A stretch of DNA of 64,000 nucleotides. Source: Amyelois transitella (Eukaryota; Arthropoda; Insecta; Lepidoptera; Pyralidae). The stretch's first letter is position 1. Every line of letters starts with the position of its first letter. The stretch spans positions 12,501 through 76,500 of the forward strand of contig NC_083518.1 in NCBI RefSeq assembly GCF_032362555.1, in the 5' to 3' direction. Both the position numbers and the translations under genes were made by a program. Below the pieces are notes generated by a model. That model made no database searches. It saw nothing but the letters and a program-made list of their open reading frames with translations, and was not told the DNA's origin. Of this stretch, positions 1 to 52,244 are shown in pieces.

Positions 1-3000
1 ACCTAACCCGTCGTTGACCTAACCCGTCGTTGACCTAACCCGTCGTTGACCTAACCCGTCGTTGACCTAACCCGTCGTTGACCTAACCCGTCGTTGACCT
101 AACCCGTCGTTGACCTAACCCGTCGTTGACCTAACCCGTCGTTGACCTAACCCGTCGTTGACCTAACCCGTCGTTGACCTAACCCGTCGTTGACCTAACC
201 CGTCGTTGACCTAACCCGTCGTTGACCTAACCCGTCGTTGACCTAACCCGTCGTTGACCTAACCCGTCGTTGACCTAACCCGTCGTTGACCTAACCCGTC
301 GTTGACCTAACCCGTCGTTGACCTAACCCGTCGTTGACCTAACCCGTCGTTGACCTAACCCGTCGTTGACCTAACCCGTCGTTGACCTAACCCGTCGTTG
401 ACCTAACCCGTCGTTGACCTAACCCGTCGTTGACCTAACCCGTCGTTGACCTAACCCGTCGTTGACCTAACCCGTCGTTGACCTAACCCGTCGTTGACCT
501 AACCCGTCGTTGACCTAACCCGTCGTTGACCTAACCCGTCGTTGACCTAACCCGTCGTTGACCTAACCCGTCGTTGACCTAACCCGTCGTTGACCTAACC
601 CGTCGTTGACCTAACCCGTCGTTGACCTAACCCGTCGTTGACCTAACCCGTCGTTGACCTAACCCGTCGTTGACCTAACCCGTCGTTGACCTAACCCGTC
701 GTTGACCTAACCCGTCGTTGACCTAACCCGTCGTTGACCTAACCCGTCGTTGACCTAACCCGTCGTTGACCTAACCCGTCGTTGACCTAACCCGTCGTTG
801 ACCTAACCCGTCGTTGACCTAACCCGTCGTTGACCTAACCCGTCGTTGACCTAACCCGTCGTTGACCTAACCCGTCGTTGACCTAACCCGTCGTTGACCT
901 AACCCGTCGTTGACCTAACCCGTCGTTGACCTAACCCGTCGTTGACCTAACCCGTCGTTGACCTAACCCGTCGTTGACCTAACCCGTCGTTGACCTAACC
1001 CGTCGTTGACCTAACCCGTCGTTGACCTAACCCGTCGTTGACCTAACCCGTCGTTGACCTAACCCGTCGTTGACCTAACCCGTCGTTGACCTAACCCGTC
1101 GTTGACCTAACCCGTCGTTGACCTAACCCGTCGTTGACCTAACCCGTCGTTGACCTAACCCGTCGTTGACCTAACCCGTCGTTGACCTAACCCGTCGTTG
1201 ACCTAACCCGTCGTTGACCTAACCCGTCGTTGACCTAACCCGTCGTTGACCTAACCCGTCGTTGACCTAACCCGTCGTTGACCTAACCCGTCGTTGACCT
1301 AACCCGTCGTTGACCTAACCCGTCGTTGACCTAACCCGTCGTTGACCTAACCCGTCGTTGACCTAACCCGTCGTTGACCTAACCCGTCGTTGACCTAACC
1401 CGTCGTTGACCTAACCCGTCGTTGACCTAACCCGTCGTTGACCTAACCCGTCGTTGACCTAACCCGTCGTTGACCTAACCCGTCGTTGACCTAACCCGTC
1501 GTTGACCTAACCCGTCGTTGACCTAACCCGTCGTTGACCTAACCCGTCGTTGACCTAACCCGTCGTTGACCTAACCCGTCGTTGACCTAACCCGTCGTTG
1601 ACCTAACCCGTCGTTGACCTAACCCGTCGTTGACCTAACCCGTCGTTGACCTAACCCGTCGTTGACCTAACCCGTCGTTGACCTAACCCGTCGTTGACCT
1701 AACCCGTCGTTGACCTAACCCGTCGTTGACCTAACCCGTCGTTGACCTAACCCGTCGTTGACCTAACCCGTCGTTGACCTAACCCGTCGTTGACCTAACC
1801 CGTCGTTGACCTAACCCGTCGTTGACCTAACCCGTCGTTGACCTAACCCGTCGTTGACCTAACCCGTCGTTGACCTAACCCGTCGTTGACCTAACCCGTC
1901 GTTGACCTAACCCGTCGTTGACCTAACCCGTCGTTGACCTAACCCGTCGTTGACCTAACCCGTCGTTGACCTAACCCGTCGTTGACCTAACCCGTCGTTG
2001 ACCTAACCCGTCGTTGACCTAACCCGTCGTTGACCTAACCCGTCGTTGACCTAACCCGTCGTTGACCTAACCCGTCGTTGACCTAACCCGTCGTTGACCT
2101 AACCCGTCGTTGACCTAACCCGTCGTTGACCTAACCCGTCGTTGACCTAACCCGTCGTTGACCTAACCCGTCGTTGACCTAACCCGTCGTTGACCTAACC
2201 CGTCGTTGACCTAACCCGTCGTTGACCTAACCCGTCGTTGACCTAACCCGTCGTTGACCTAACCCGTCGTTGACCTAACCCGTCGTTGACCTAACCCGTC
2301 GTTGACCTAACCCGTCGTTGACCTAACCCGTCGTTGACCTAACCCGTCGTTGACCTAACCCGTCGTTGACCTAACCCGTCGTTGACCTAACCCGTCGTTG
2401 ACCTAACCCGTCGTTGACCTAACCCGTCGTTGACCTAACCCGTCGTTGACCTAACCCGTCGTTGACCTAACCCGTCGTTGACCTAACCCGTCGTTGACCT
2501 AACCCGTCGTTGACCTAACCCGTCGTTGACCTAACCCGTCGTTGACCTAACCCGTCGTTGACCTAACCCGTCGTTGACCTAACCCGTCGTTGACCTAACC
2601 CGTCGTTGACCTAACCCGTCGTTGACCTAACCCGTCGTTGACCTAACCCGTCGTTGACCTAACCCGTCGTTGACCTAACCCGTCGTTGACCTAACCCGTC
2701 GTTGACCTAACCCGTCGTTGACCTAACCCGTCGTTGACCTAACCCGTCGTTGACCTAACCCGTCGTTGACCTAACCCGTCGTTGACCTAACCCGTCGTTG
2801 ACCTAACCCGTCGTTGACCTAACCCGTCGTTGACCTAACCCGTCGTTGACCTAACCCGTCGTTGACCTAACCCGTCGTTGACCTAACCCGTCGTTGACCT
2901 AACCCGTCGTTGACCTAACCCGTCGTTGACCTAACCCGTCGTTGACCTAACCCGTCGTTGACCTAACCCGTCGTTGACCTAACCCGTCGTTGACCTAACC

Positions 3001-3050
3001 CGTCGTTGACCTAACCCGTCGTTGACCTAACCCGTCGTTGACCTAACCCG
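1..3050. repeat. 16-bp tandem satellite, 190 copies plus 10 bases
   Basis: The unit is ACCTAACCCGTCGTTG, repeated head to tail 190 times plus ten further bases, with no variant that I can see. It runs off the left edge of the window, so the full length is unknown. The unit contains CCTAA, the complement of the insect telomere repeat TTAGG, next to a CCCGTCGTTGA segment that is not telomeric. The array stops abruptly at 3050, where ordinary AT-rich DNA begins. Such homogeneity points to recent amplification or continuing homogenisation. It may be subtelomeric, interstitial or an assembly-edge satellite; the window cannot decide. Confidence 0.97.
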
Positions 3051-22500: not shown

Positions 22501-25500
22501 ACGCATGTTTTAATCTAATGAATTCCCTTCCCAATACTTGGTATAAAATGATGATTAAATAAAAGTTTGCCTTATCACGGTCATCTTAATCTCGTTTGGG
22601 CTTTGGCGCAAAACGTCTCTTTCGCAAAATGTCCCCTGGTCGCAAAACATCTCTTTCGCAGAATGTCTCTTTCGCAGAACATCTCTTTCGCAGAATGTCT
22701 CTTTCGCAGAACATCTCTTTCGCAGGATGTCTCTTTCGCAGAATGTCTTTTTCGCAAAATGTCGCGCCAGGGACTTAGAATAAAATTTGATTCTCAAAGC
22801 AAAATCATTTATTACAATTATAGAGTAATTATGCAACCTTAAACTACTTAATTTTTGGGTCCAAAACAAACTTTGTCAATGTTTATTTTGATTAGCAATA
22901 CTTTATTAGCAATTAAGTACCTTACAGTATAAAAAATAAGTACATTTTTGTTTATTTTTCTTAATGAAAGATTTATTTTCTTAATCATTTACGAAAAAAA
23001 TAATTTATGTAACAAATTTTAATTAATAACAAAGGTTAATTTAAATGCGAAAATTAATTTTTTGAATCATTTATGAAAATGATAAAAATAATTTTATTCG
23101 CAATAATTAATAATTAACCAAAGTTAACTTTAGTACCACAATTAAGATATGCATTTTAATTATATTTTCTTTTTATCAATAATATATGTTAATCATTTAT
23201 AAAAATGATTAAAATATATTTTATTTGCAATACTTGGTAACTAAAGTAAATTACAATGCCAAAATTCGTTTATTTGACATTTTAATATTAAATTTATTTT
23301 TTTAATCATTTAAAAAATGATATAAAAATATTTTTATTTTTTATTTAACATATTTTAGTGCCATAATGAGAAGACAGTTATGTTTAAGGTCAACACGGGG
23401 GAGTGTTTCATATTTTTCTCAAAGTTTGTTTTGGACCCAAAAATTAAGTAGTTTAAGGTTGCATAATTACTCTATAATTGTAATAAATGATTTTGCTTTG
23501 AGAATCAAATTTTATTCTAAGTCCCTGGCGCGACATTTTGCGAAAGAGACATTCTGCGAAAGAGACATCCTGCGAAAGAGATGTTCTGCGAAAGAGACAT
23601 TCTGCGAAAGAGATGTTCTGCGAAAGAGACATTCTGCGAAAGAGACATTCTGCGAAAGAGATGTTTTGCGACCAGGGGACATTTTGCGAAAGAGACGTTT
23701 TGCGCCAAAGCCCTCGTTTGTAAGCAGATTCGACACAAACTAGTAACGGTCGTGACGCCACATGTGCGCCGCAACTGGCGCGCGGTTCCAGGCTCGCTTC
23801 CTGTATTACCTCGACTCCAGGACACATCACGCCTTTTTCAAACATTACAAGCGTTTTATTTCTCCTCTTATTAGAGTAATTAATACTGCGCCAATCAAAT
23901 GATGTACTATCTACTTTTTATGGGAAAGTACCTACCGGGATGAAAGTACTTTTATTAGTACTTCATCCCGGTAAAACTACTTAAAGTTCCCGTGGTATTT
24001 GCAAAATACCTGTATTCTTTAGTAGGTGGCGCTATATGAGCGCGTATAGATTGCTAAATGCGCGCGGGCGTAGCTGAAACCAATGTTCCTTTTCATAAGG
24101 ATGAACTCTTATTTTCATAAATGGAATGAAAAATGGACAATTACACGGGTAAGAAGGCAATCACCGCCGCGGACGGCGATGTGCGCACAAGCCAACTCAT
24201 CGCTATGTCTGCCATAATGAGTGGCAATGGACAATTAGTCAGTGCTTGGTCGTATCACGGAATGCTTTGTAATAAGTAACAACCCAATTAAAATTAATAG
24301 AAGGGTAATTTTGAGAATACGTAGTTCGACTGATTCGTTCAGTATCGACTGTTAAACGTTCCGTCGGTGTCATGGGCCTTTTTATAATTTGCGTGAGGAT
24401 AAATGAATGTAGCACTCATAACTGTATCGTTAGGGTTTATGCCTAATGATGGGGGATGATTTGATTCCAAATTTTTGAAGCCTTCATGAATTGTTTTAAA
24501 AACGTATTTTGACAAATTATTTTAGGTGTCTACCTATTTGGTAGAAGTTTTGTTATAAGATGATGGTTTGTTTGGCTCAAGTGCTCCCAGATCGTTTGTA
24601 ATGAGTATTCATGTAATGTTGTCTTTTACATGAATGAGGGCAAGTTTCATAATTACCACTGGGGACATTTAACTGGTGATATACACGAAAATGTTGGATG
24701 TATGTTTAATAGAAAAAAAACCTGGTCTGACTAAAAATTTAATGTTGTTAATGACTGCCACTGCTGCTGCTGTTGGCTGATGTCCCGGCGGCCACCTCGG
24801 GTTGGGAATATTCTCCACGAGATGCGTGTCGACAATGAAAGTTGTGAAGTGTCGGGGAGCCGCGTGTGGCGGACGGCGAGCGCGATGTGAATCACACGGC
24901 GGCTATATTTAGCCGGCGCCGCCGCCCGACCCTATCGCCGATACGTTTTCGTGAACAGCTTGTAAAACAGGAGATTTCAATTTTAATACGGACACTTTAT
25001 ACTGTATAACTATATATATTCAGACACCCCAGCTAATGTGGAAAAATTATAATAGCATGATAAGGGAAGCTAAACTCTCATAACAATCTCACTTGTTCCT
25101 CGTCCCGTAGTGTCAATAACACGTCCAGCAGCGATGTCACCTCAACGGTTGAAGCGGGCGAGCTCGCGATTGCATTACATGACAGCTCGTCGGTGTGGCC
25201 GGGCTAATTACAGTCAGTGGTAACAAGTACGTCGCAGTCGGCCTCAAGAGTCTGTTTGTTTACGGGAGCGCGAGGTGCGGACGGACGACCACCAACACGC
25301 GCTCATTTCGCCGCAACGCAATTCACAGGCTGTCATCGTTACTCTAACAGAAACATCTGCCTACCTGGACGTACGAAAAGAATATGAAACACCTGCAATG
25401 CCCAACTATTCTACCCTGAATCGAGAAAACAATGAGATCTTAAGGGAATCTCGACACAACGGACCGTAGCCACTGAATAGCATACATACTTACAACCATA

Positions 25501-38936: not shown

Positions 38937-40660
38937 CTAGGTGTACATGGACAGCGTGCCGTCGGCGTTGGCGCTGAGCAGCCAGGGCTGCGCGGGGTGC
39001 CAGCGCAGCGCCAGCACGCGGGGCGGCCGGGCGCCGCGCGCGCGCAGCTGCTTCAGCGGCACCAGCAGCGGGTTCTGCAGCAGGTCGCTGGAGATGCAAC
39101 ATACACACGATGGCATCAATGACTAACTTATAAAAAAAACATGCGTACATAAATAATATTAAATATCCCACTTGCTTATTACACCTATGATGAATTTTAT
39201 CGGCTTTCGGACATTTGTCTTATCAGGTAGTACGAATTAACCATTATTGGAAAAAAAAATAGTGGTTATTTACTCCTTAGTACCGAACAACTTTTTTGAA
39301 AATTTATTTGATAAAGTTCAATACGATTACAAAGAATATTGAATTTTGCGAAAGAGATCATTATTAAACATTTGACTGTTTGCTGGTGTACAATCTCCCA
39401 CCTGTAGACTTGTCCGTGCGACACGACGATGTAGGGGTCGTCGCCGGCGCTGGCGAACAGCGGGTACCGCGCGTGGAACGCCACGCTGCGCACCGCCGAG
39501 CCGTGCAGCCGCAGCGTCTGGTACGGCCGCCCCGACAGCTCCAGGTCGAACCTGCGATACGAGTCGCCTCATTATATTTAACAAGAACTAGCAACATCTC
39601 CACTAGACCATAACTGATGGCTGGAATAAATCCTCAATACAAGCGCATAAAAAGATTAGACCAGACACGGCGAATCAGACATAATTAGATCCACAAAACT
39701 CGTGTAACACAGAAACAACTTACTTGGGTAAGTAATTTTTGGAATATTTGTAGGGAAACCTAATGTTCGGATCATGTTTACAGATTAAACTATCTGAGTG
39801 TGTAGGTTTCTTTACGAAATTTTTGTCAGGGTAATAACATCAGTTTATAAACAAGAATGTAATTGCATCACGTTGGAGCCTGGTACCCACCAGAGACACT
39901 TCCTGTCGTAGGAGCCGACGAGCAGGTTGTCGCCGGCGGGGTGCACGGCCAGCGCCGACAGCCACTGCGCGCCCGTCTGCAGCTTGCGCACCAGCTGCTG
40001 CTTCACCAGGTCGTACACGCGCACCACGCGCTGCGTCTGCAAGTAGCGTCTCATGTCACTCAACTCTATTCATCCGAAAATCTAATCCTACTACTATTAT
40101 CAAGGCGAAAGTTTGTATGGATGTTTGTTACTCTTTCACGCAAAAACTACTGAACCGATTACCATGAAATTTGGTATGTAGGTAGCTGAAGACCCAGAAT
40201 AACACATAGGCTACTTTTTATCCCAGAGTTCCCGCGGGATTGATGATAGGGTTTCCATGCGGACGAAGTCGCGGGCGGCCTCTAGTTCACTTATAATTTG
40301 GAAAAGGACAGCTTGTTGCCTTTCTTGGAAATATCATCACGGTAAGACCAGATTGATCGCTGTCTCACTGTATTTACCGTAAGCGTACACACGAGATGGA
40401 TACCTGCATACTACCCCATCACTCTTGCAGGCTGTTGTGACGTCACTCAAGAACAGAGGATACAATATTTGTAACACTGATCTTTTGGAGCGCGAGCTAC
40501 ACCATGTTAAGGAGGTATTTAGTGGTACAGAGGAGTGGTCGTAAGCTTTAGGAGGAACAGCAGCGGAGAGAGAGCACTGACCGCCACGAACAGCTGCGGG
40601 CGCGCGGGGTGGAACAGCGCGCACTGCACGGCGCCGCGCGCGCGGGCCAGCGGCAGCTGG

Positions 40661-40696
<36 letters not shown>

Positions 40697-40779
40697 ACTG
40701 ACCGCCACGAACAGCTGCGGGCGCGCGGGGTGGAACAGCGCGCACTGCACGGCGCCGCGCGCGCGGGCCAGCGGCAGCT

Positions 40780-40815
<36 letters not shown>

Positions 40816-40898
40816 ACTGACCGCCACGAACAGCTGCGGGCGCGCGGGGTGGAACAGCGCGCACTGCACGGCGCCGCGCGCGCGGGCCAGCGGCAGCT

Positions 40899-40936
<38 letters not shown>

Positions 40937-43900
40937 ACTGACCGCCACGAACAGCTGCGGGCGCGCGGGGTGGAACAGCGCGCACTGCACGGCGCCGCGC
41001 GCGCGGGCCAGCGGCAGCTGGGAGCCGCGGCGCGACAGCTGGTGCACGGCGACGCTGCGGGACGCCGCGTCCTGCAGCGTGACGCACACGTAGTCGCCGC
41101 GCGCGTGCCACGATATCTGAAAAAATTACATAGATATGTCACCGGAAAATAACAAGAGCCGCAAGTTTATAAACTTCCTCGGAAATTTATAAACTTTATA
41201 CTAGATAGATGCTTGAATCCTAATGGGGAGAGGTATATTGTTCCAACATTTAGTGGCCTGGTAGCGGAAGCTGCCCCTGAATGCAACTGTTTTTTGTCGA
41301 TAAGTAAGTAATGGGGGCCGACATGATCTCGCGTTATGCTTGGTGTTGAATTTTATCTTAGAGTGGAGAGTGGAGATAGGGATCCCGTGTCTTATAACTC
41401 CGAATAATAAACTAGCAAGGAAAAAAACCGTTTGGGAACCTATCGCGACAGTGCTACTGTTTTGTTTCGCGATACATGTGTAGGTGCTATAATAGTAAAG
41501 ACTTTTTTATAAGGTGGTACTAACTAACTATTGTGTGTGTTTGGACATTATTTATAAAGACTTTGGTGTACGTGGTGATAGTGCGTCTGGACTTTCGTGA
41601 ACTCTTATTTCGACATACACGTATTGCTTCATCGTGTTACCATGGTGCTTACGACATCTCGCGCAGAGAGTCCGTCGGCGGGCGCTGCCCAAGCTAATGT
41701 GGTGGCGTCGCCGCCGCCCACTCCGGAGGCTGTACAACCACCTGCACCTGCGCCGGAGGCTGTTCCAGTGCCTCCGATTGCTCCGATCATGATAACAACC
41801 GAGCAGCTGAGATTTTTAATGGAAAGGGTAAATGGCCCACCAACTGTAAGTAGTTCCTTAAATGGTAATTACGCAAAACGCACAACACGATTCGAAGGCG
41901 AGAAGTCTAGCAACGTGGAATCTTTTGCAGACGCCATAGAGGTCTATAAAGATTGTGTTGGAGTAAGCGACGAAAACGCCTTGCGTGGCTTGCCTATGTT
42001 ACTCACCGGGTTAGCAGGCGGGTGGCAGGGTGTGAAGGACCATACCCCAACCTGGTCTGCCTCAAACAAACGTTTGGACCAAGGTTGCCCCCACACAAAG
42101 TTTATAGAAAAATAATTGAAAGGGAACAGCGTAGTAACGAAGCTACCTTTTCATATGTCACATCAAAAGAATTTAATTTTCCAGAAGTGATGAGAGCGGA
42201 ATTAGAGAAAGATGTTAGAAGATGACATCATCAAAGATGCTTAGTAAGAGTGGGCTTCCCCAGTGGTGCTGATATCCAAGAAAAATGGAGAGGCTTTTGT
42301 GTCGACTACCGGAAATTAAACAGCGTCACCCGTACTGATAAGTATCCACTTCCTGTCATAGATTACATGTTGCACAGTACCAGAGAAGGCTGTGTCATGT
42401 CCACAATTGATTTAAAGGCTGGTTACTGGCAGATTATTGTCGCTCCGGAGGATAAACCAAAGACGGCATTCACCACACCTTTTGGTACATTCCAATTTCA
42501 CCGAATGCCGTTAGGCCTTAAAAACGCGCCAGCAACTTTTCAGCGATTGATCGATCGGATGAGGTCTGGTCTTAAATACGTATGTGTGCTGGCTTATTTG
42601 GATGATATTCTGGTAATATCACCAAATTTTAATCGTCACCGATCGTCGACCGTCTACGCCTGTTTAAAATGAAAGCCAATCGAGGTAAGTGTGTTTTTGC
42701 TAAGGAGCGGCTTACTTACTTGGGACATTAGGCATTGAACCAGATCCTCGAAAGGTGGAGGCTGTGCTGAAAATGTTGCCGCCGACGAACCTGAAGACAC
42801 TTAGAACCTTCTTACAGACGTGTTCGTGGTTTCGCTAATTTATTCCGCAATTCCCAGCGCCCGCGTTGAGTACCGCCCGCACGCCTCATTAAACAAATCA
42901 GTCTCTTTACAACGCGCGCACCGGTGCGGTATGCACATCTTATAAGGCGAGCAAGTTTTGTATTTCTTTTTATAAGTAACCAAAGTAAAGTTGTTATCCC
43001 GTAGTTGGCTTTTACTTTTCAATCTCGCCCCGCTATAATAGCAGACTACTCACATGCGTGATGGGCTTGAAGTGCGTGATGGCGAGCCTGATGCCGAGCG
43101 CCCACTCGTCGGCGCTCACGGCGTCCCACGTGATACACGACGCCGTGCGGGCGTCCACTATGAAACAAATTATTGTAAAAATATAACTTCATCTCTGTGA
43201 CAGAACGATACCTATGACGTAGATGCGAGAAAGACAGACTATAACCTGTGAATTTCACATCTGTCACAGAGATGAAAGTAGATTATAGCATACGTATAGT
43301 CACATTTATGCGGGGGTAGCCAAAACCAGTCTTGAAAAACCTTCAGCCGTTTGGTTCAAAGATAAAATAGAATAATTAGAATGAATATTTGTTTAATAGA
43401 CAAAAGTAGTAATCCGACTCACTGGTCATCTTCTGCGGCGGCGGCTCCATGAGCAGCTCGTCGGTGCGGCGCGCGACCGCGTGCGCGCCGATGTCGGCGC
43501 CCGGGTTCAGCAGCAGCAGCCGGCCGCCCGCCGCCGCGCCCACCACGCTGAGCGCACGCACGGGCGCCCACTGCACGCAGCGCACGCCGCCCGCCTCGCC
43601 CGCCAGCGCCGGCGCCACGGCGATGGTGCGCAGGCAGCGGCCCGTGCTTGTCTCCCATACTACGCGACAACATATGCCTTATTTTACTTTCAAATCGGAG
43701 GCCTCTTCACTTTACCGAAACCATCTCTGGATCAGACAGGAACGCAGAAATTTTGTCATCCGGTATACTACAATAACATACCTTAAATCCAAAATTTCAA
43801 GGCTATAAGTCAGTTAGTTCCGAAATTAAGCGAACGCAAAGTTTCGCATTTACCAACCCTAAGCCCAACCAAACTATTAAAAATATCGACTTACCGCCCT

Positions 43901-46900
43901 TATAAAAAATATTAAAAAATCGCAGAACTGAATCTGATGAAGAACATTCATTTGGTCTCAGCTGTATTAGATATACAAGGTGACATTTAAAACAACTGCA
44001 TCCTTTTAAACATAGACTATACCCATGCTTCTGAGCCGTTTGAGCCTATTTTTACTACGCTTTTATTTATTTAAATTAAAAATCATCATTTTCACATTTA
44101 AAAAACCCTCAAAAACTACGTCACACGCTTTATTAAAGACCAATACTACAAAAAGAAATTAAAACTAAACTTGTAAATAAATGCCTGAAAAATAAATTAT
44201 TTTTCTAGTATCAAGATCAAGTGAAGTACAGAATTGTCGAGATCGCTCAGCCTAATGAATTGTGTCGTTGACCTCTGAATCTTACGCGTCGCTTTTCCGC
44301 CGGCCGGGGTTATATGACGTATTTAGGATCGTGGATTCTGATACTTTTATTTTTTTTCGTACTTTCTGAAATAAGAACCGATATTTTTCTTTTAACGTTT
44401 TTAAATATCCTTTAGATGAGTACACTTAACAGTTAAACTTATGCAGTTGAATTAAAATTTACCCTGTTTTGAATGCCCCCTTCTACTTTTGGTACATAAA
44501 AATCATGACTGATGGGCATAGCATTCACCAAGATTGGTTGTACCGTGTGACGTTAGAGACGCCGTGTGGTTCCCACTGACCTCTGACTGTGCCGTCGTCG
44601 CCGGCCGACACCACGTACTGCCCGCTGGGGTCGAAGTCGGCCGCGCGCACCAGCCCCTGGTGCCCGCGCAGCACCAGCGACTCGCTCGTGGGGAACGGCT
44701 GCAGGTCGCGGGGGGAAGGCAGCTTCGGCACCAAGTCTTCCGGGCTGATAGTCAACTGCGAGGGACGGGGATAACATTCACGTGAGTAACTTTGGAATGA
44801 TAGCTAGGAATGCAAAATTATACTGAACAATGTGGTTCAAAACCATATGAAACAATGTACTGTCTATGAAAATTGAATAGTTATATAATAGTACTTTCAT
44901 TGACATATCTTCGTTACAATCGGCACCAAAATGGTGAAAAGTGAAATGAACATCGGCAATGAAGTCGGCGGGCAGGCAGAGCACTCACCCGCATCTTGAG
45001 CGCGCGCGGCGCCAGGTAGAGGTCGAGGCAGCGCAGGAAGCGCTCGCGCACGAAGCGCGGGAAGGCGGGCACCGCGCGCAGGCTGCCGTGCCGCGTCGGC
45101 AGGAACGTGTACTTCCGCTTCCACGGGGTCTCGCTCAGCTTCTCCCACTCCTTCATCTGTCAGTGCGAGGTACAGTTTTTACTCATTCTAAGTACTTTTA
45201 AACATATGACAAGAAATACAGAAGCAGTTTTATAGAAAAATTTATTGTTAAGAGTCCACCCACCTCGCTCTCGTCCAGCAGATACTCCGGCGGCGGGTTG
45301 TAGCTCTCGGCGTGCGCGGGCAGCGCGGGGATGAGAGAGAGAGAGAGAGTCCACCCACCTCGCTCTCGTCCAGCAGATACTCCGGCGGCGGGTTGTAGCT
45401 CTCGGCGTGCGCGGGCAGCGCGGGGATGAGAGAGAGAGAGAGAGAGTCCACCCACCTCGCTCTCGTCCAGCAGATACTCCGGCGGCGGGTTGTAGCTCTC
45501 GGCGTGCGCGGGCAGCGCGGGGATGAGAGAGAGAGAGAGAGAGAGTCCACCCACCTCGCTCTCGTCCAGCAGATACTCCGGCGGCGGGTTGTAGCTCTCG
45601 GCGTGCGCGGGCAGCGCGGGGATGAGAGAGAGAGAGAGAGAGTCCACCCACCTCGCTCTCGTCCAGCAGATACTCCGGCGGCGGGTTGTAGCTCTCGGCG
45701 TGCGCGGGCAGCGCGGGGATGAGAGAGAGAGAGAGAGAGTCCACCCACCTCGCTCTCGTCCAGCAGATACTCCGGCGGCGGGTTGTAGCTCTCGGCGTGC
45801 GCGGGCAGCGCGGGGATGAGAGAGAGAGAGAGAGAGAGTCCACCCACCTCGCTCTCGTCCAGCAGATACTCCGGCGGCGGGTTGTAGCTCTCGGCGTGCG
45901 CGGGCAGCGCGGGGATGAGAGAGAGAGAGAGAGAGTCCACCCACCTCGCTCTCGTCCAGCAGATACTCCGGCGGCGGGTTGTAGCTCTCGGCGTGCGCGG
46001 GCAGCGCGGGGATGAGAGAGAGAGAGAGAGAGTCCACCCACCTCGCTCTCGTCCAGCAGATACTCCGGCGGCGGGTTGTAGCTCTCGGCGTGCGCGGGCA
46101 GCGCGGGGATGAGAGAGAGAGAGAGAGAGTCCACCCACCTCGCTCTCGTCCAGCAGATACTCCGGCGGCGGGTTGTAGCTCTCGGCGTGCGCGGGCAGCG
46201 CGGGGATGAGAGAGAGAGAGAGAGAGTCCACCCACCTCGCTCTCGTCCAGCAGATACTCCGGCGGCGGGTTGTAGCTCTCGGCGTGCGCGGGCAGCGCGG
46301 GGATGAGAGAGAGAGAGAGAGAGTCCACCCACCTCGCTCTCGTCCAGCAGATACTCCGGCGGCGGGTTGTAGCTCTCGGCGTGCGCGGGCAGCGCGGGGA
46401 TGAGAGAGAGAGAGAGAGTCCACCCACCTCGCTCTCGTCCAGCAGATACTCCGGCGGCGGGTTGTAGCTCTCGGCGTGCGCGGGCAGCGCGGGGATGAGA
46501 GAGAGAGAGAGAGAGTCCACCCACCTCGCTCTCGTCCAGCAGATACTCCGGCGGCGGGTTGTAGCTCTCGGCGTGCGCGGGCAGCGCGGGGATGAGAGAG
46601 AGAGAGAGAGAGTCCACCCACCTCGCTCTCGTCCAGCAGATACTCCGGCGGCGGGTTGTAGCTCTCGGCGTGCGCGGGCAGCGCGGGGATGAGAGAGAGA
46701 GAGAGAGAGTCCACCCACCTCGCTCTCGTCCAGCAGATACTCCGGCGGCGGGTTGTAGCTCTCGGCGTGCGCGGGCAGCGCGGGGATGAGAGAGAGAGAG
46801 AGAGAGTCCACCCACCTCGCTCTCGTCCAGCAGATACTCCGGCGGCGGGTTGTAGCTCTCGGCGTGCGCGGGCAGCGCGGGGATGAGAGAGAGAGAGAGA

Positions 46901-49900
46901 GTCCACCCACCTCGCTCTCGTCCAGCAGATACTCCGGCGGCGGGTTGTAGCTCTCGGCGTGCGCGGGCAGCGCGGGGATGAGAGAGAGAGAGAGAGAGTC
47001 CACCCACCTCGCTCTCGTCCAGCAGATACTCCGGCGGCGGGTTGTAGCTCTCGGCGTGCGCGGGCAGCGCGGGGATGAGAGAGAGAGAGAGAGAGTCCAC
47101 CCACCTCGCTCTCGTCCAGCAGATACTCCGGCGGCGGGTTGTAGCTCTCGGCGTGCGCGGGCAGCGCGGGGATGAGAGAGAGAGAGAGAGAGTCCACCCA
47201 CCTCGCTCTCGTCCAGCAGATACTCCGGCGGCGGGTTGTAGCTCTCGGCGTGCGCGGGCAGCGCGGGGATGAGAGAGAGAGAGAGAGAGTCCACCCACCT
47301 CGCTCTCGTCCAGCAGATACTCCGGCGGCGGGTTGTAGCTCTCGGCGTGCGCGGGCAGCGCGGGGATGAGAGAGAGAGAGAGAGTCCACCCACCTCGCTC
47401 TCGTCCAGCAGATACTCCGGCGGCGGGTTGTAGCTCTCGGCGTGCGCGGGCAGCGCGGGGATGAGAGAGAGAGAGAGAGAGTCCACCCACCTCGCTCTCG
47501 TCCAGCAGATACTCCGGCGGCGGGTTGTAGCTCTCGGCGTGCGCGGGCAGCGCGGGGATGAGAGAGAGAGAGAGAGAGTCCACCCACCTCGCTCTCGTCC
47601 AGCAGATACTCCGGCGGCGGGTTGTAGCTCTCGGCGTGCGCGGGCAGCGCGGGGATGAGAGAGAGAGAGAGAGTCCACCCACCTCGCTCTTGTCCAGCAG
47701 ATACTCCGGCGGCGGGTTGTAGCTCTCGGCGTGCGCGGGCAGCGCGGGGATGAGAGAGAGAGAGAGAGAGTCCACCCACCTCGCTCTCGTCCAGCAGATA
47801 CTCCGGCGGCGGGTTGTAGCTCTCGGCGTGCGCGGGCAGCGCGGGGATGAGAGAGAGAGAGAGAGAGTCCACCCACCTCGCTCTCGTCCAGCAGATACTC
47901 CGGCGGCGGGTTGTAGCTCTCGGCGTGCGCGGGCAGCGCGGGGATGAGAGAGAGAGAGAGAGAGTCCACCCACCTCGCTCTCGTCCAGCAGATACTCCGG
48001 CGGCGGGTTGTAGCTCTCGGCGTGCGCGGGCAGCGCGGGGATGAGAGAGAGAGAGAGAGTCCACCCACCTCGCTCTCGTCCAGCAGATACTCCGGCGGCG
48101 GGTTGTAGCTCTCGGCGTGCGCGGGCAGCGCGGGGATGAGAGAGAGAGAGAGAGAGTCCACCCACCTCGCTCTCGTCCAGCAGATACTCCGGCGGCGGGT
48201 TGTAGCTCTCGGCGTGCGCGGGCAGCGCGGGGATGAGAGAGAGAGAGAGAGAGTCCACCCACCTCGCTCTCGTCCAGCAGATACTCCGGCGGCGGGTTGT
48301 AGCTCTCGGCGTGCGCGGGCAGCGCGGGGATGAGAGAGAGAGAGAGAGAGTCCACCCACCTCGCTCTCGTCCAGCAGATACTCCGGCGGCGGGTTGTAGC
48401 TCTCGGCGTGCGCGGGCAGCGCGGGGATGAGAGAGAGAGAGAGAGAGTCCACCCACCTCGCTCTCGTCCAGCAGATACTCCGGCGGCGGGTTGTAGCTCT
48501 CGGCGTGCGCGGGCAGCGCGGGGATGAGAGAGAGAGAGAGAGTCCACCCACCTCGCTCTCGTCCAGCAGATACTCCGGCGGCGGGTTGTAGCTCTCGGCG
48601 TGCGCGGGCAGCGCGGGGATGAGAGAGAGAGAGAGAGAGTCCACCCACCTCGCTCTCGTCCAGCAGATACTCCGGCGGCGGGTTGTAGCTCTCGGCGTGC
48701 GCGGGCAGCGCGGGGATGAGAGAGAGAGAGAGAGAGTCCACCCACCTCGCTCTCGTCCAGCAGATACTCCGGCGGCGGGTTGTAGCTCTCGGCGTGCGCG
48801 GGCAGCGCGGGGATGAGAGAGAGAGAGAGAGAGTCCACCCACCTCGCTCTCGTCCAGCAGATACTCCGGCGGCGGGTTGTAGCTCTCGGCGTGCGCGGGC
48901 AGCGCGGGGATGAGAGAGAGAGAGAGAGAGTCCACCCACCTCGCTCTCGTCCAGCAGATACTCCGGCGGCGGGTTGTAGCTCTCGGCGTGCGCGGGCAGC
49001 GCGCGGCGCGGCGCGGGGATGTGCTTGTGCACGCCGCGCGGCGTCTCCTCCGCGGAGCCCCACAGGTTGTAGAACTGCTTCTCCTGGTAACACATTGCCA
49101 GTGGTACAGGTGCTATATTATAATCAGGCAAATCTTGAAACGTTAACTGTCCGACCAAAGAGAACACAATCCTTAAACGATTGTAAGTACATAATGTTGA
49201 AGACATTAAGCGATACCTTTGTATCCTACGAGTATTTTATCCCGTATAATATTATAATTTTGTGCAGGACATACAATCAAAATATACTCCTTTATTTTTA
49301 TAGTTAAGCATTAGACCCGAATGTGTTCAATATCGGTTTGATATACACGAAGACCTGTAAGTTCAATGACTTCTCGCCATCTTCTACATAATAACAGACC
49401 TTCTTCCGCTGCCTCTCCCTGGCGATCTCCTTCCTGGTCTTGCTCCAGCCCATCTTGAGCGCGTGCACCAGCTTGGCCACGTGCCGCTGCTCGGCGCGCG
49501 ACGGCAGGAACGAGCGCTTGTGCTCCGGGAACGCGCGCACCGGCGCGGCCAGCACCTCGCGGGAGAACCACTCCACCCATGGCTGCCACATACATATTTA
49601 TATCGTCAACTTAATATTGTACAAATCATAATTCTTCTTCTTATATTTAAAAAGCTAATTCTTGGAGGAGTACAGTGGAGCGTCCCTTCATTCATTGCTT
49701 TTCTCTTTAAATGTTTTTAATTTAGTTTTGAATACACACAAACACAATTTCGACATACAAAAGTAAGAATCCTAATTAACAATTAGTAACTGGAACTAGG
49801 CACACACGGATAAGAGGCAAACAAACCTGGTACTCATCGTGGCGCGGGTCGGGCAGCATGCCCTGGCGGATGCGCTGTATGAGCTGCAGGTCCTCAGCGC

Positions 49901-52244
49901 TCAGCCTCACGTCCTGTCCCGTGGTCGGATCCTGGACTGTTCTCCAGAATTCTGGATCTTCGCATTTCCTGTACAATTTTACAAGTACTGTAAAGATCTT
50001 CTTACTACTCTCGAAAGTACTAATTTAAATTTAACCGGCCCACTCAGTACAAGACTGCGCCTCGGAAAGAATAGCCAAACAAAAGGAATGAATGTACAGA
50101 CAGCCGCCATCTTTGTTACCTGAGGAAGTCGTCAATGGCGTCGCGCTGCGGCGGGCGCATGATCCTGCGGCCGTCGAGGTCGTAGCCGACGTGCGGGTAC
50201 TCGCGGTACCACCACATCGGCACGTCCCCCGCCGGGTTGCGGCGGTCCTCCTCGTCCGACGTGTCGCCCGACTCGTACTCGTCTGCCGACACCAAAATAA
50301 CAGTGATGAGACATGTGGTTTACGAATAGACTACTCCATATCTATTCAATGTCAATTATTAAGCGATATGAATTATCCTATAATAATAATAATTAAAAAT
50401 TTTGAATTTGAATTCATCAACATCATAGCTAGCTACAACAATATTGGTCTTATTTTTTTGTAGCGGCGTCAAAGAAATTGCTCTATGAATAAATCAATAA
50501 CCTCATCAAATCAGTTAGTTTTTGCACACCAGAATTTGAAGAACCATATTTTCTACTTCTTACATTTTGTTATTCATGAGTAATCGAACAATAGGCAACA
50601 CAAACCAGAATATGAGAATTAACAATACAAGACACTCACCCTTCTCTTCAACAGGTTTGATAGTAACCCTGGTCTCCTTGATCTTCTCAGACAGCAAGTC
50701 CACACTGCTCTTACTGCCTTCTCCTTTCCCTTTCTGTTCAACCCTCTCCCTACTAGTTTCTTTCTGTTTTTGTTCAGCCTTCTCACTTGTTGGTTTTTTT
50801 CTTTTGCTGGTTTCAGGGTTTACAGCCTTCTGTCTCTTTTCTTTGTTGCTACTAATTGTATCTTTCTTCTCTTTCTTGTCAGCCTCGTCACTGGAGGCAG
50901 TGAGGCCGGCACTGGACTCAGCACCGCTGTCCACACTCTCTTGTGACTCTTCGCCATTATCACTTTCATCTTCATTACTATTATCATCATCTGAGTCTTC
51001 ATCTTCTTCTGAATCTGTTATATCCTGTTAAATTTATATGAAGTAATGTTCTCAAAAACAACTTTTTTCTATTGCTCTCTCACTTGTAAGCTTTAATTAT
51101 GTTTATCACTTTCAGGCAACATGTCTAAAACTAACCTATCAAATAGCCAACTTAAAAGTTTTGGATTATTTTTTAGTTAGTAATCACAAGGCAGCCAAGG
51201 CATGGGCTTATGTCGTGGGAAGCTTTTACTGAAGAGGATCATCCCCCACATAAGTAAGGCCACAAATGGGCAGCTAACTGGTGGAAAAAGTCCTTGGTGA
51301 AGGTGAGAGTGTGTCAGTAGATGGCCTTGGAATCAATGATGCATTAACTGCAGCATCCATAAAAAGAGAAAGAATGCCTATTCTTCTGCTGCCATCCAAT
51401 ATGCAGAAGTTTGAAATTTTAAAAACATAGGTTATTAAATTTGTACTTACTGAAGATTCCTCTGATCCACTACCTGCGCCATTTTCATCCCCAAGTGTAG
51501 AGTCAACATCATCATCAAACAGGACTTCCTGTTAAAAAAGACACATGTCTATTGAGACAACTTGTTAATAAGTAACAACTGAGTTTGGGCAAAGCAAGGA
51601 CAGACAAATATTGAATAACAACTCTGGACAAATCTGCAGTCATACTAGAATATTGAAACACAATATTGAATTCATACTTGATTAAACTAAATGGTTATTA
51701 TAGTTCTTAAATCTTAAGTATTGTCAACAGCATATCAAATTACACTGCATGGAACTGTGTGATGCAGATAGGTTAACATTCTGTTGACCACACATTAAAA
51801 GAAGACAAGAATACCATAAAACTCATGATCACATAAATATGGATTTTATTTCATGATACCCATTATTGTGGATGTGAGGATATAGCAGTTTGAGGAATAC
51901 AGTATTGCTGAAAATAATAGGCAAACGCGAGAAAATAATGGCATTACATCCTGTTCATGGTCCGAGCCGGAGTCACTCTCCCGCTCGCGCTCCGAGTCTG
52001 TGGAGTCTTCTCCGCCGTCCAGCTCACCACGGATCAACTCCTCATCTCTGGACCACCCACCCTAATAACAAAATACAATATATATATACATATATCGACA
52101 GTAAAGTTAACCAAAAACATTGCAAGACGTCGGTGAAAACAAGTTGGTACAAACCTCATCATCCGATTCATCTTTTGAAACGGTCGTTTGTTTATCCTCT
52201 GCAGTACTTTTTCTTTTTAATAAACCACGTCTAAATGGAGGCAT
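38937..52244 (-). CDS. Bop1: Ribosome biogenesis protein BOP1 (Erb1), PeBoW complex
   Basis: Nucleolar scaffold that with PES1 and WDR12 matures the 60S subunit. Exons 5' to 3': 52244-52155, 52061-51948, 51528-51451, 51024-50640, 50282-50120, 49968-49827, 49582-49400, 49083-48940, 45156-44989, 44755-44581, 43659-43423, 43157-43054, 41116-40943, 40036-39891, 39551-39402, 39087-38937. Phases join into 867 aa (human 746). The N-terminus is acidic, then Lys/Glu-rich. The BOP1NT region has [55 protein letters not shown] and [20 protein letters not shown]. The WD propeller follows: [68 protein letters not shown] and [17 protein letters not shown]. Intron 12 holds a Ty3-like fragment, intron 10 a MITE. 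Introns 8 and 13 hold minisatellites made of the adjacent exon ends. Confidence 0.95.
40085..40285 (+). mobile_element. Dispersed repeat, 'ACTACTGAACCGATT' family, in BOP1 intron 13
   Basis: Near full-length relative of 12900-13095, running from 'tcctactactattatcaagg' to 'gcggacgaagtcgcggg', antisense to BOP1. Confidence 0.75.
40571..41017 (-). repeat. Minisatellite of BOP1 exon-13 ends: four 75-nt blocks with splice signals
   Basis: Identical 75-nt blocks lie at 40582-40656, 40703-40777, 40822-40896 and 40943-41017; the last is the 3' part of the authentic exon 40943-41116. Each block reads [20 protein letters not shown] plus QLFVA in frame. Each is followed on the minus strand by a GT donor (gtcagtg), a (CT)n tract and then CCCAG directly before the next block. 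Spacers are 46, 44 and 46 nt. Downstream blocks therefore look like complete phase-0 exons, although the spacers are shorter than usual insect introns. Confidence 0.95.
41600..42840 (+). mobile_element. Degenerate Ty3/Gypsy-type retrotransposon fragment in BOP1 intron 12
   Basis: Antisense to BOP1. A gag-like open stretch at 41597-42115 contains [17 protein letters not shown] reverse-transcriptase stretch at 42250-42672 contains [39 protein letters not shown] and the catalytic YLDD motif. The two are in different frames, much between them is missing, and protease, RNase H and integrase are absent. No clear LTR pair was found. The element is dead. Confidence 0.85.
43186..43279. repeat. Inverted repeat with 18-nt arms in BOP1 intron 11
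   Basis: ACTTCATCTCTGTGACAG (43186-43203) pairs with 43261-43279 with one extra base, around a 57-nt spacer. Confidence 0.8.
43291..43375 (-). mobile_element. SINE fragment, diverged
   Basis: Degraded 'catacgtatagtcac', 'gcgggggtagcc' and 'agtcttgaaa' blocks match the head of the SINE family. Confidence 0.5.
43976..44466 (+). mobile_element. TA-flanked MITE, copy D (BOP1 intron 10)
   Basis: Full-length family member between the exons at 44581 and 43659, with worn ends (CAAGGTGAC and TTACCCTG). Confidence 0.8.
45246..48939 (-). repeat. Minisatellite of the BOP1 exon-8 end: 39 tandem 5' splice sites
   Basis: On the minus strand each unit holds the last part of exon 8 ([21 protein letters not shown]), the donor GAGCGAG|gtgggtgga and a CT tract of varying length. 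Thirty-nine donor copies are counted, the first belonging to the authentic exon 48940-49083. Successive spacings are 97 bp in 29 intervals, 95 in seven and 99 in two, differing only in CT number. One substitution is seen, near 47691 (Glu to Lys in the exon-like part). Compared with exon 8, each unit lacks 10 bases (CGCCGCGCCG) at its junction. None of the three sense frames contains a stop. Confidence 0.97.
49083..51450. other. BOP1 introns 3-7
   Basis: Short AT-rich introns between exons. The longer ones (50283-50639 and 51025-51450) show no repeat or RNA gene I can recognise. Ribosome-assembly genes often host snoRNAs, but I could not identify box C/D or H/ACA pairs with confidence. Confidence 0.4.
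51529..51947. other. BOP1 intron 2
   Basis: AT-rich; nothing recognised. Confidence 0.4.

Follow-up and report, generated by a model that had tools for sequence, protein, structure and literature searches.

The closest described counterparts of the element analyzed here are the lancelet "mirages", tandem repeats across exon-intron boundaries in the Adh3 and globin genes that are reported to be unstable in length and yet spliced regularly, although usable AG/GT signals are present in many of the copies (PMC3087553). With TnC and PGBD5 added to the amphioxus mirage genes (PMC3902484), the set comprises Adh3, BflGb6/BflGb9, TnC and PGBD5, in which minisatellite copies of ~10-160 bp span the boundary and repeat its splice signals, with both boundaries affected. 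Tandem duplication that crosses a boundary has also been discussed as a source of introns (PMC4974935, PMC2812944). We analyzed a 64-kb stretch of an Amyelois transitella contig (NC_083518.1; C14:12501-76500, hereafter the window), in which a 97-bp minisatellite on the minus strand repeats the end of BOP1 exon 8 together with its 5' splice site (donor) and a CT tract, so that intron 8 opens with 39 tandem donors. BOP1 is a ribosome-assembly gene, and it is intact here, with one locus found in the genome.

Like the mirages, the BOP1 unit spans an exon-intron boundary and repeats the splice signal, in 39 of 39 donors, and the array can be read as intron, leaving an intact gene whose 867-aa model is collinear with human BOP1. 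The sequence-only reading of this locus had held that no case of a boundary amplified in this way was described, a claim that falls with the lancelet genes, where exon-intron boundaries are tandemly duplicated (PMC3087553, PMC3902484). The mirage precedents cited here come from lancelets, and BOP1 differs from them in copy number (39, against 6 and 3 reported for BflGb6), in its insect-like genome, in the CT tract that joins the copies and in the return of the same design at several other loci; the CT joins and the recurrence of CT-joined donor arrays are the new part of the finding. Intron gain by tandem duplication, as described in the Rogers model, potato RdRp and human internal tandem repeats, likewise has a boundary-crossing duplication supply the splice signals, whereas at BOP1 an existing 3783-bp intron holds duplicated exon pieces and no new intron is seen. 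The tandem AGGT arrays of fission yeasts (24-bp exonic segment, PMC4974935) also hold multiple tandem copies with splice signals, but there the repeats are reported to be exonic and to be removed as an intron, while the BOP1 units span the donor alongside a true exon copy. Among the matches listed in a literature search of open-licence papers, no insect case of a boundary-spanning minisatellite was seen.

The array is highly regular. Tandem Repeats Finder (TRF) gave a period of 97, 38.8 copies and 99% matches (Table 1), and an exact minus-strand search for CGAG/GTGGGTGGA, the slash marking the splice junction, returned 39 donors with the identical 9-mer GAG/GTGGGTGGA, the GT of the first at 48939 and that of the last at 45263. 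Among the 38 donor-to-donor intervals, 29 measure 97 bp, seven 95 bp and two 99 bp; these differences are confined to the CT tract, which is (CT)8, 9 or 10 in irregular order along the array, and 37 of the 38 unit bodies are identical, the remaining one carrying a single substitution. CU sequence borders the inner copies on either side but the true donor on just one. When the 97-bp unit was searched against the 327-Mb (327,366,114-base) assembly, it gave 39 matches, all at this array (counts from assembly-wide searches are lower bounds throughout). Because of its size and the identity of its copies, a chance origin of the array is excluded. The sequence-only reading had the unit and the 39 tandem donors right, their equivalence holding at the level of the 9-mer, and its coordinates and copy number were correct to within a few bases.

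The host gene is well defined. The BOP1 exon model, whose exons are numbered from the start codon, has 16 exons with GT/AG at 15 of 15 introns and encodes 867 aa with a BOP1NT domain (PF08145, E 9.7e-99) and WD40 repeats. When 627 of its residues were searched, they aligned over their full length with the human protein (8fkp_SS, E 4e-203), and the alignment is collinear across the exon 8/9 and exon 13/14 joins. A search of the assembly with 324 BOP1 residues yielded 45 matches, of which six are exons of BOP1, 38 are copies in the array and the remaining one is a weak hit on C12. The same model, domains and human alignment bear out the gene and the eighth coding exon named in the sequence-only reading, along with its acceptor at 45157, where the AG is followed by exon 9.

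Predicted splicing from the first donor to 45157 fits the protein match to human BOP1. The sequence-only reading also had the cell choose among 39 equivalent donors, which is at most a possibility: the 9-mers are equal, but it is only the first that makes a 144-nt exon together with the acceptor of exon 8, and lancelet genes with mirages are reported to splice regularly (PMC3087553). On the other side, alternative transcripts are reported to be frequent for human tandem repeats at such boundaries (PMC2812944). The earlier view that only the first donor gives the standard protein holds in that the first-donor product is collinear with human BOP1, with one refinement: of the 38 extra donors, 13 would join exon 9 in frame and add residues, 10 would run into a stop immediately on entering exon 9, and for 15 the frame would be shifted, with no stop found through exon 16. 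No frame of the array's sense strand contains a stop, which is not telling because 11% of shuffled units behave likewise.

Comparison with the human protein indicates the direction of change. True exon 8 holds 12 bp that are missing from the array copies; its corresponding stretch (17 residues) was compared with human VPAPKLALPGHAESYNP, and a segment of 14 residues equals human VPAPKLALPGHAES in length. Since the exon segment has the human length, the comparison marks the exon as the older form and the array as derived from a copy of it. The last array copy reads GTGGGTGGACTCT and passes straight into unique intron sequence, whereas inner copies carry (CT)8-10; the long CT tract therefore belongs to the joins between copies.

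These observations lead us to the reading, to which we assign a probability of about 0.77, that the array is a recent CT-tract tandem duplication, a minisatellite of the mirage type, tolerated through its exon-proximal donor. A polymerase may have paused or slipped at the short CT tract near the start of the intron and re-primed upstream in the exon, so that the exon-8 end (82 bp, of which 70 are kept in the array copies) would have been duplicated in tandem with the 5' splice site and ~13 bp of intron. The duplicated unit could then have grown to 39 copies through slippage or unequal exchange, and the CT tract would have grown at the joins, to (CT)8-10 at each as against CTCT at the unduplicated intron end. 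Because the exon-proximal first donor, which adjoins the acceptor side of exon 8, would still work, the allele would survive; with that donor spliced to 45157, the whole array would leave as intron and may be selectively neutral.

BOP1 holds a second array of this design at exon 13, with donors GCG/GTCAGTG at 40942, 40821, 40702 and 40581, ~(CT)16-17 after the first three and a short CT tract after the fourth. GA/CT tracts of at least 5 units occur in the window only within these two arrays. Across the assembly, a donor-like GTNNGT with (CT)8 no more than 6 nt downstream had 142 matches, of which the first 100 were listed, against 59 for the reversed control. Split by pattern, GTHNGT with (CT)8 gave 17 loci, three of them arrays, and GTGHGT gave six loci, one of them an array; among the matches listed, the GTGGGT type included BOP1 exon 8 as well as at least one single site. 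A GANNGA control gave seven matches and no array, and a TGNNTG control (115 matches) showed, among the 100 listed, no array beyond two known ones that fit the pattern.

A donor-blind survey of purine-preceded (CT)8 gave 216 matches genome-wide, of which 100 were listed, reaching C14:59097. It covered the G-preceded class (51 of 51), 100 of the 106 tracts in which the A is itself preceded by A, C or T, and GA-preceded tracts as far as the middle of the BOP1 array on C14; C- or T-preceded tracts, and purine-followed tracts taken as a separate class (347 control matches), lie outside it. Nine clusters, each of at least two tracts in a 1-kb span, were present among the matches listed, and six of them are arrays of exon end and donor: C2:9229051, C4:1562110, C4:1653595, C12:10294051 and the BOP1 exon-8 and exon-13 arrays. 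A seventh CT array, C12:10378284, is missing from the survey because its tracts are preceded by C or T. In the first units of these seven arrays, the CT tract starts at +10, +8, +8, +16, +6, +5 and +5 relative to the donor, and at C4:1562106 and BOP1 exon 13 the joins share short letters between exon and intron (by eye). That the design returns at BOP1 exon 13 and elsewhere in the genome speaks for a recurring process rather than a single accident. The loci form a natural series of 4 to 39 equal donors in which to ask how the spliceosome picks one among identical donors, and they are fresh examples of possible intron lengthening through duplicated exon edges.

Table 1. Positions of the BOP1 features and of splice-site arrays at other loci; positions without a prefix are window coordinates.
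Feature	Position	Strand	Basis
Coding part of the BOP1 gene (16 exons, 867 aa)	38940..52244	(-)	exon model, domains, human alignment
Exon 8 (144 bp), source of array	48940..49083	(-)	exon model; matching length in human BOP1
97-bp array: exon-8 end + donor + (CT)8-10, 39 donors	45251..49003	(-)	TRF + exact search
Authentic 5' splice site of intron 8 in the model (first donor)	48938..48939	(-)	exact search + exon model
38 additional donor copies, same 9-mer as first donor	45262..48842	(-)	exact search
Last donor, only CTCT before unique intron sequence	45251..45263	(-)	array tail read
3' splice site of the 3783-bp intron 8	45157..45158	(-)	exon model
Exon 9	44989..45156	(-)	exon model
Exon 13, source of second array	40943..41116	(-)	exon model
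Second array, 119-121 bp units, exon 13 end + donor + CT	40566..41024	(-)	TRF + sequence search
Array, exon end + donor + CT, 4 donors, 121-123 bp	C4:1562106 (tract C4:1562110)		fetched sequence
Array, 14 tracts; exon with acceptor-like AG (by eye)	C4:1653595		fetched sequence
Array, 6 donors seen, 169-183 bp	C12:10294051-10294934		fetched sequence
Array, 25 donors seen; units 122, 124 and, near end, 110	C12:10378284		fetched sequence
Array, 13 tracts; stretch read begins inside array, not at true exon edge	C2:9229051		fetched sequence
Donor-spanning array without CT, 51 bp, 16 copies	L039 2174-2989		by eye
Donor-spanning array without CT, 195 bp, two TRF rows; Helicase_C exon	L040 6148-7870		by eye
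Donor-spanning array without CT, 111 bp; PRT6_C exon	L041 9237-9628		by eye
Donor-spanning array without CT, 109 bp	L042 5205-5495		by eye
Acceptor-spanning array, 103 bp; peptidase M3 exon	L047 5359-5734		by eye
Acceptor-spanning array, 70 bp, 2 copies	L040 7890-8030		by eye
Acceptor-spanning array, ~51 bp, ~30 copies	L054 2161-3650		by eye

Several results weigh against a CT-driven, tolerated duplication. The exon-8 join shows no microhomology apart from the CT tract (by eye). The initial CT searches had GTNNGT built into the pattern. Away from arrays the donor pattern shows no enrichment, as three arrays account for 20 of the 38 GTHNGT matches, compared with 29 matches in the reversed control. 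In three of the nine survey clusters no donor was seen in the unit over the 111 bases read at each: C27:5520467 is a compound CT microsatellite, C27:2061013 shows none in the unit as read, and at C28:3786223 a CAG/GTTAGT stands just upstream, not visibly in the unit. Arrays that span acceptors occur as well as those that span donors, and three random loci (24 kb in total) held no splice-site array, their only repeats being three short AT-rich ones in one locus. Higher-order units were considered and rejected, as the lag-5 recurrence of CT lengths other than 9 was not significant over lags 1-10 (2096 of 5000 shuffles reach it). In human boundary tandem repeats, 66% of intron modifications are reported also to have a repeat-retaining transcript (PMC2812944), a figure that tells against assuming the array to be silent.

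It is doubtful, in our judgment, that the recurring process amplifies 5' splice sites in particular, with a CT tract ~5-16 nt from the donor triggering repeated back-switching into the GC-rich exon end. If it did, such a donor-anchored process would produce copy-variable arrays of exon end, donor and CT tract in protein-coding genes, and these U1/CU-tract arrays would lengthen introns fast and might tune splicing, offering a route to intron growth or new exons.

The tolerated duplication has to be set against readings in which the array does something or is not real. The 39 U1 sites and CU tracts might act as decoys or as PTB/U1 platforms, delaying splicing or causing intron 8 to be retained, with copy number tuning BOP1 output. 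Identical donors and CU tracts packed into one intron, the CU on both sides of inner copies but on one side of the true donor, and the second such array in the gene all speak for this, and PTB binding to the putative CT-tract sites is plausible; the near-identity of the copies, however, suits youth better than constraint, and lancelet mirages are reported without a splicing effect (PMC3087553, PMC3902484), so that we regard a regulatory array as improbable. A lengthened protein, made by splicing in the inner donors or the units as mini-exons, could draw on the stop-free sense strand, the 13 of 38 donors in frame with exon 9, an AG that starts 0-11 nt past the CT tract in five of the seven CT arrays, and the repeat-retaining transcripts reported as common for human boundary repeats (PMC2812944). 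We consider it highly improbable, as shuffled units are stop-free in 11% of cases, exon-body lengths modulo 3 across the seven arrays (0, 0, 2, 1, 1, 1, 0) show no preference, the GT-to-AG stretches are just 20-55 nt with no branch point seen by eye, and an insert would land within the BOP1NT domain match. A functional mini-exon array was rejected, with bodies divisible by 3 in three of the seven arrays, the BOP1 exon-8 array included.

An assembler or consensus step might instead have multiplied a repeat of small true copy number, as the near-identity of the copies would allow. The irregular order of CT lengths and the one substitution, the recurrence of the design at further loci, and the unique flanks and intact gene stand against an artefact, which we find scarcely credible.

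Arrays without CT were found at loci fetched around matches of the CT-pattern searches (Table 1); these loci are no fair sample, and therefore no enrichment figure is given. Of six exon peptides from them submitted to a domain scan, three reach the curated cut-off, that of L039 matches Hobbit just below it, one has a weak unrelated match and one has none. The L039 unit consists of GTGAGT and part of an apparent dispersed short repeat with only ~2 bp of exon, and the L054 unit, an acceptor-side counterpart of the donor arrays, places an acceptor-like CACACCCAG/TGG beside a WD40-like exon (by eye). By eye, no splice site was seen in the arrays at L040 1703-2655, L056 1-398 and L056 4413-4692, and the account excludes repeats that are short or simple, among them L039 821-877, L039 5044-5126, L046 4248-4358, L047 3524-3616 and poly-A runs in L052-L053. 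Sequence around a CT-joined donor array was read at four loci (the window, L039, L040 and L041), and at each of them a second splice-site array lies within ~6 kb; two arrays within one gene are seen for BOP1 only.

Other repeats occur in the window. Within BOP1 intron 12, retroelement remains with a reverse-transcriptase-like reading frame (by eye) lie on the plus strand at 41600-42900, and we take their features to be those of a retroelement family. A viral_contigs scan with 177 BOP1 residues gave one weak match, with 38% identity over 43 residues. Positions 1-3050 hold 190.6 perfect copies of the 16-bp repeat ACCTAACCCGTCGTTG, directly after a 2500-base N run and 12.5 kb from the contig start; its CCTAA is, we presume, telomere-like. 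A two-copy search of this repeat returned 189 matches in one orientation, and the 100 listed all lie on C14 at 1-3050. Because the repeat is 12.5 kb inside the contig, past the N run, with matches in one orientation and those listed all at this one place, a chromosome-end telomere was dropped as its explanation. Two further arrays of a 16-bp repeat, at 22607-22763 and 23532-23704, stand in inverted orientation with inverted flanks and resemble a foldback element.

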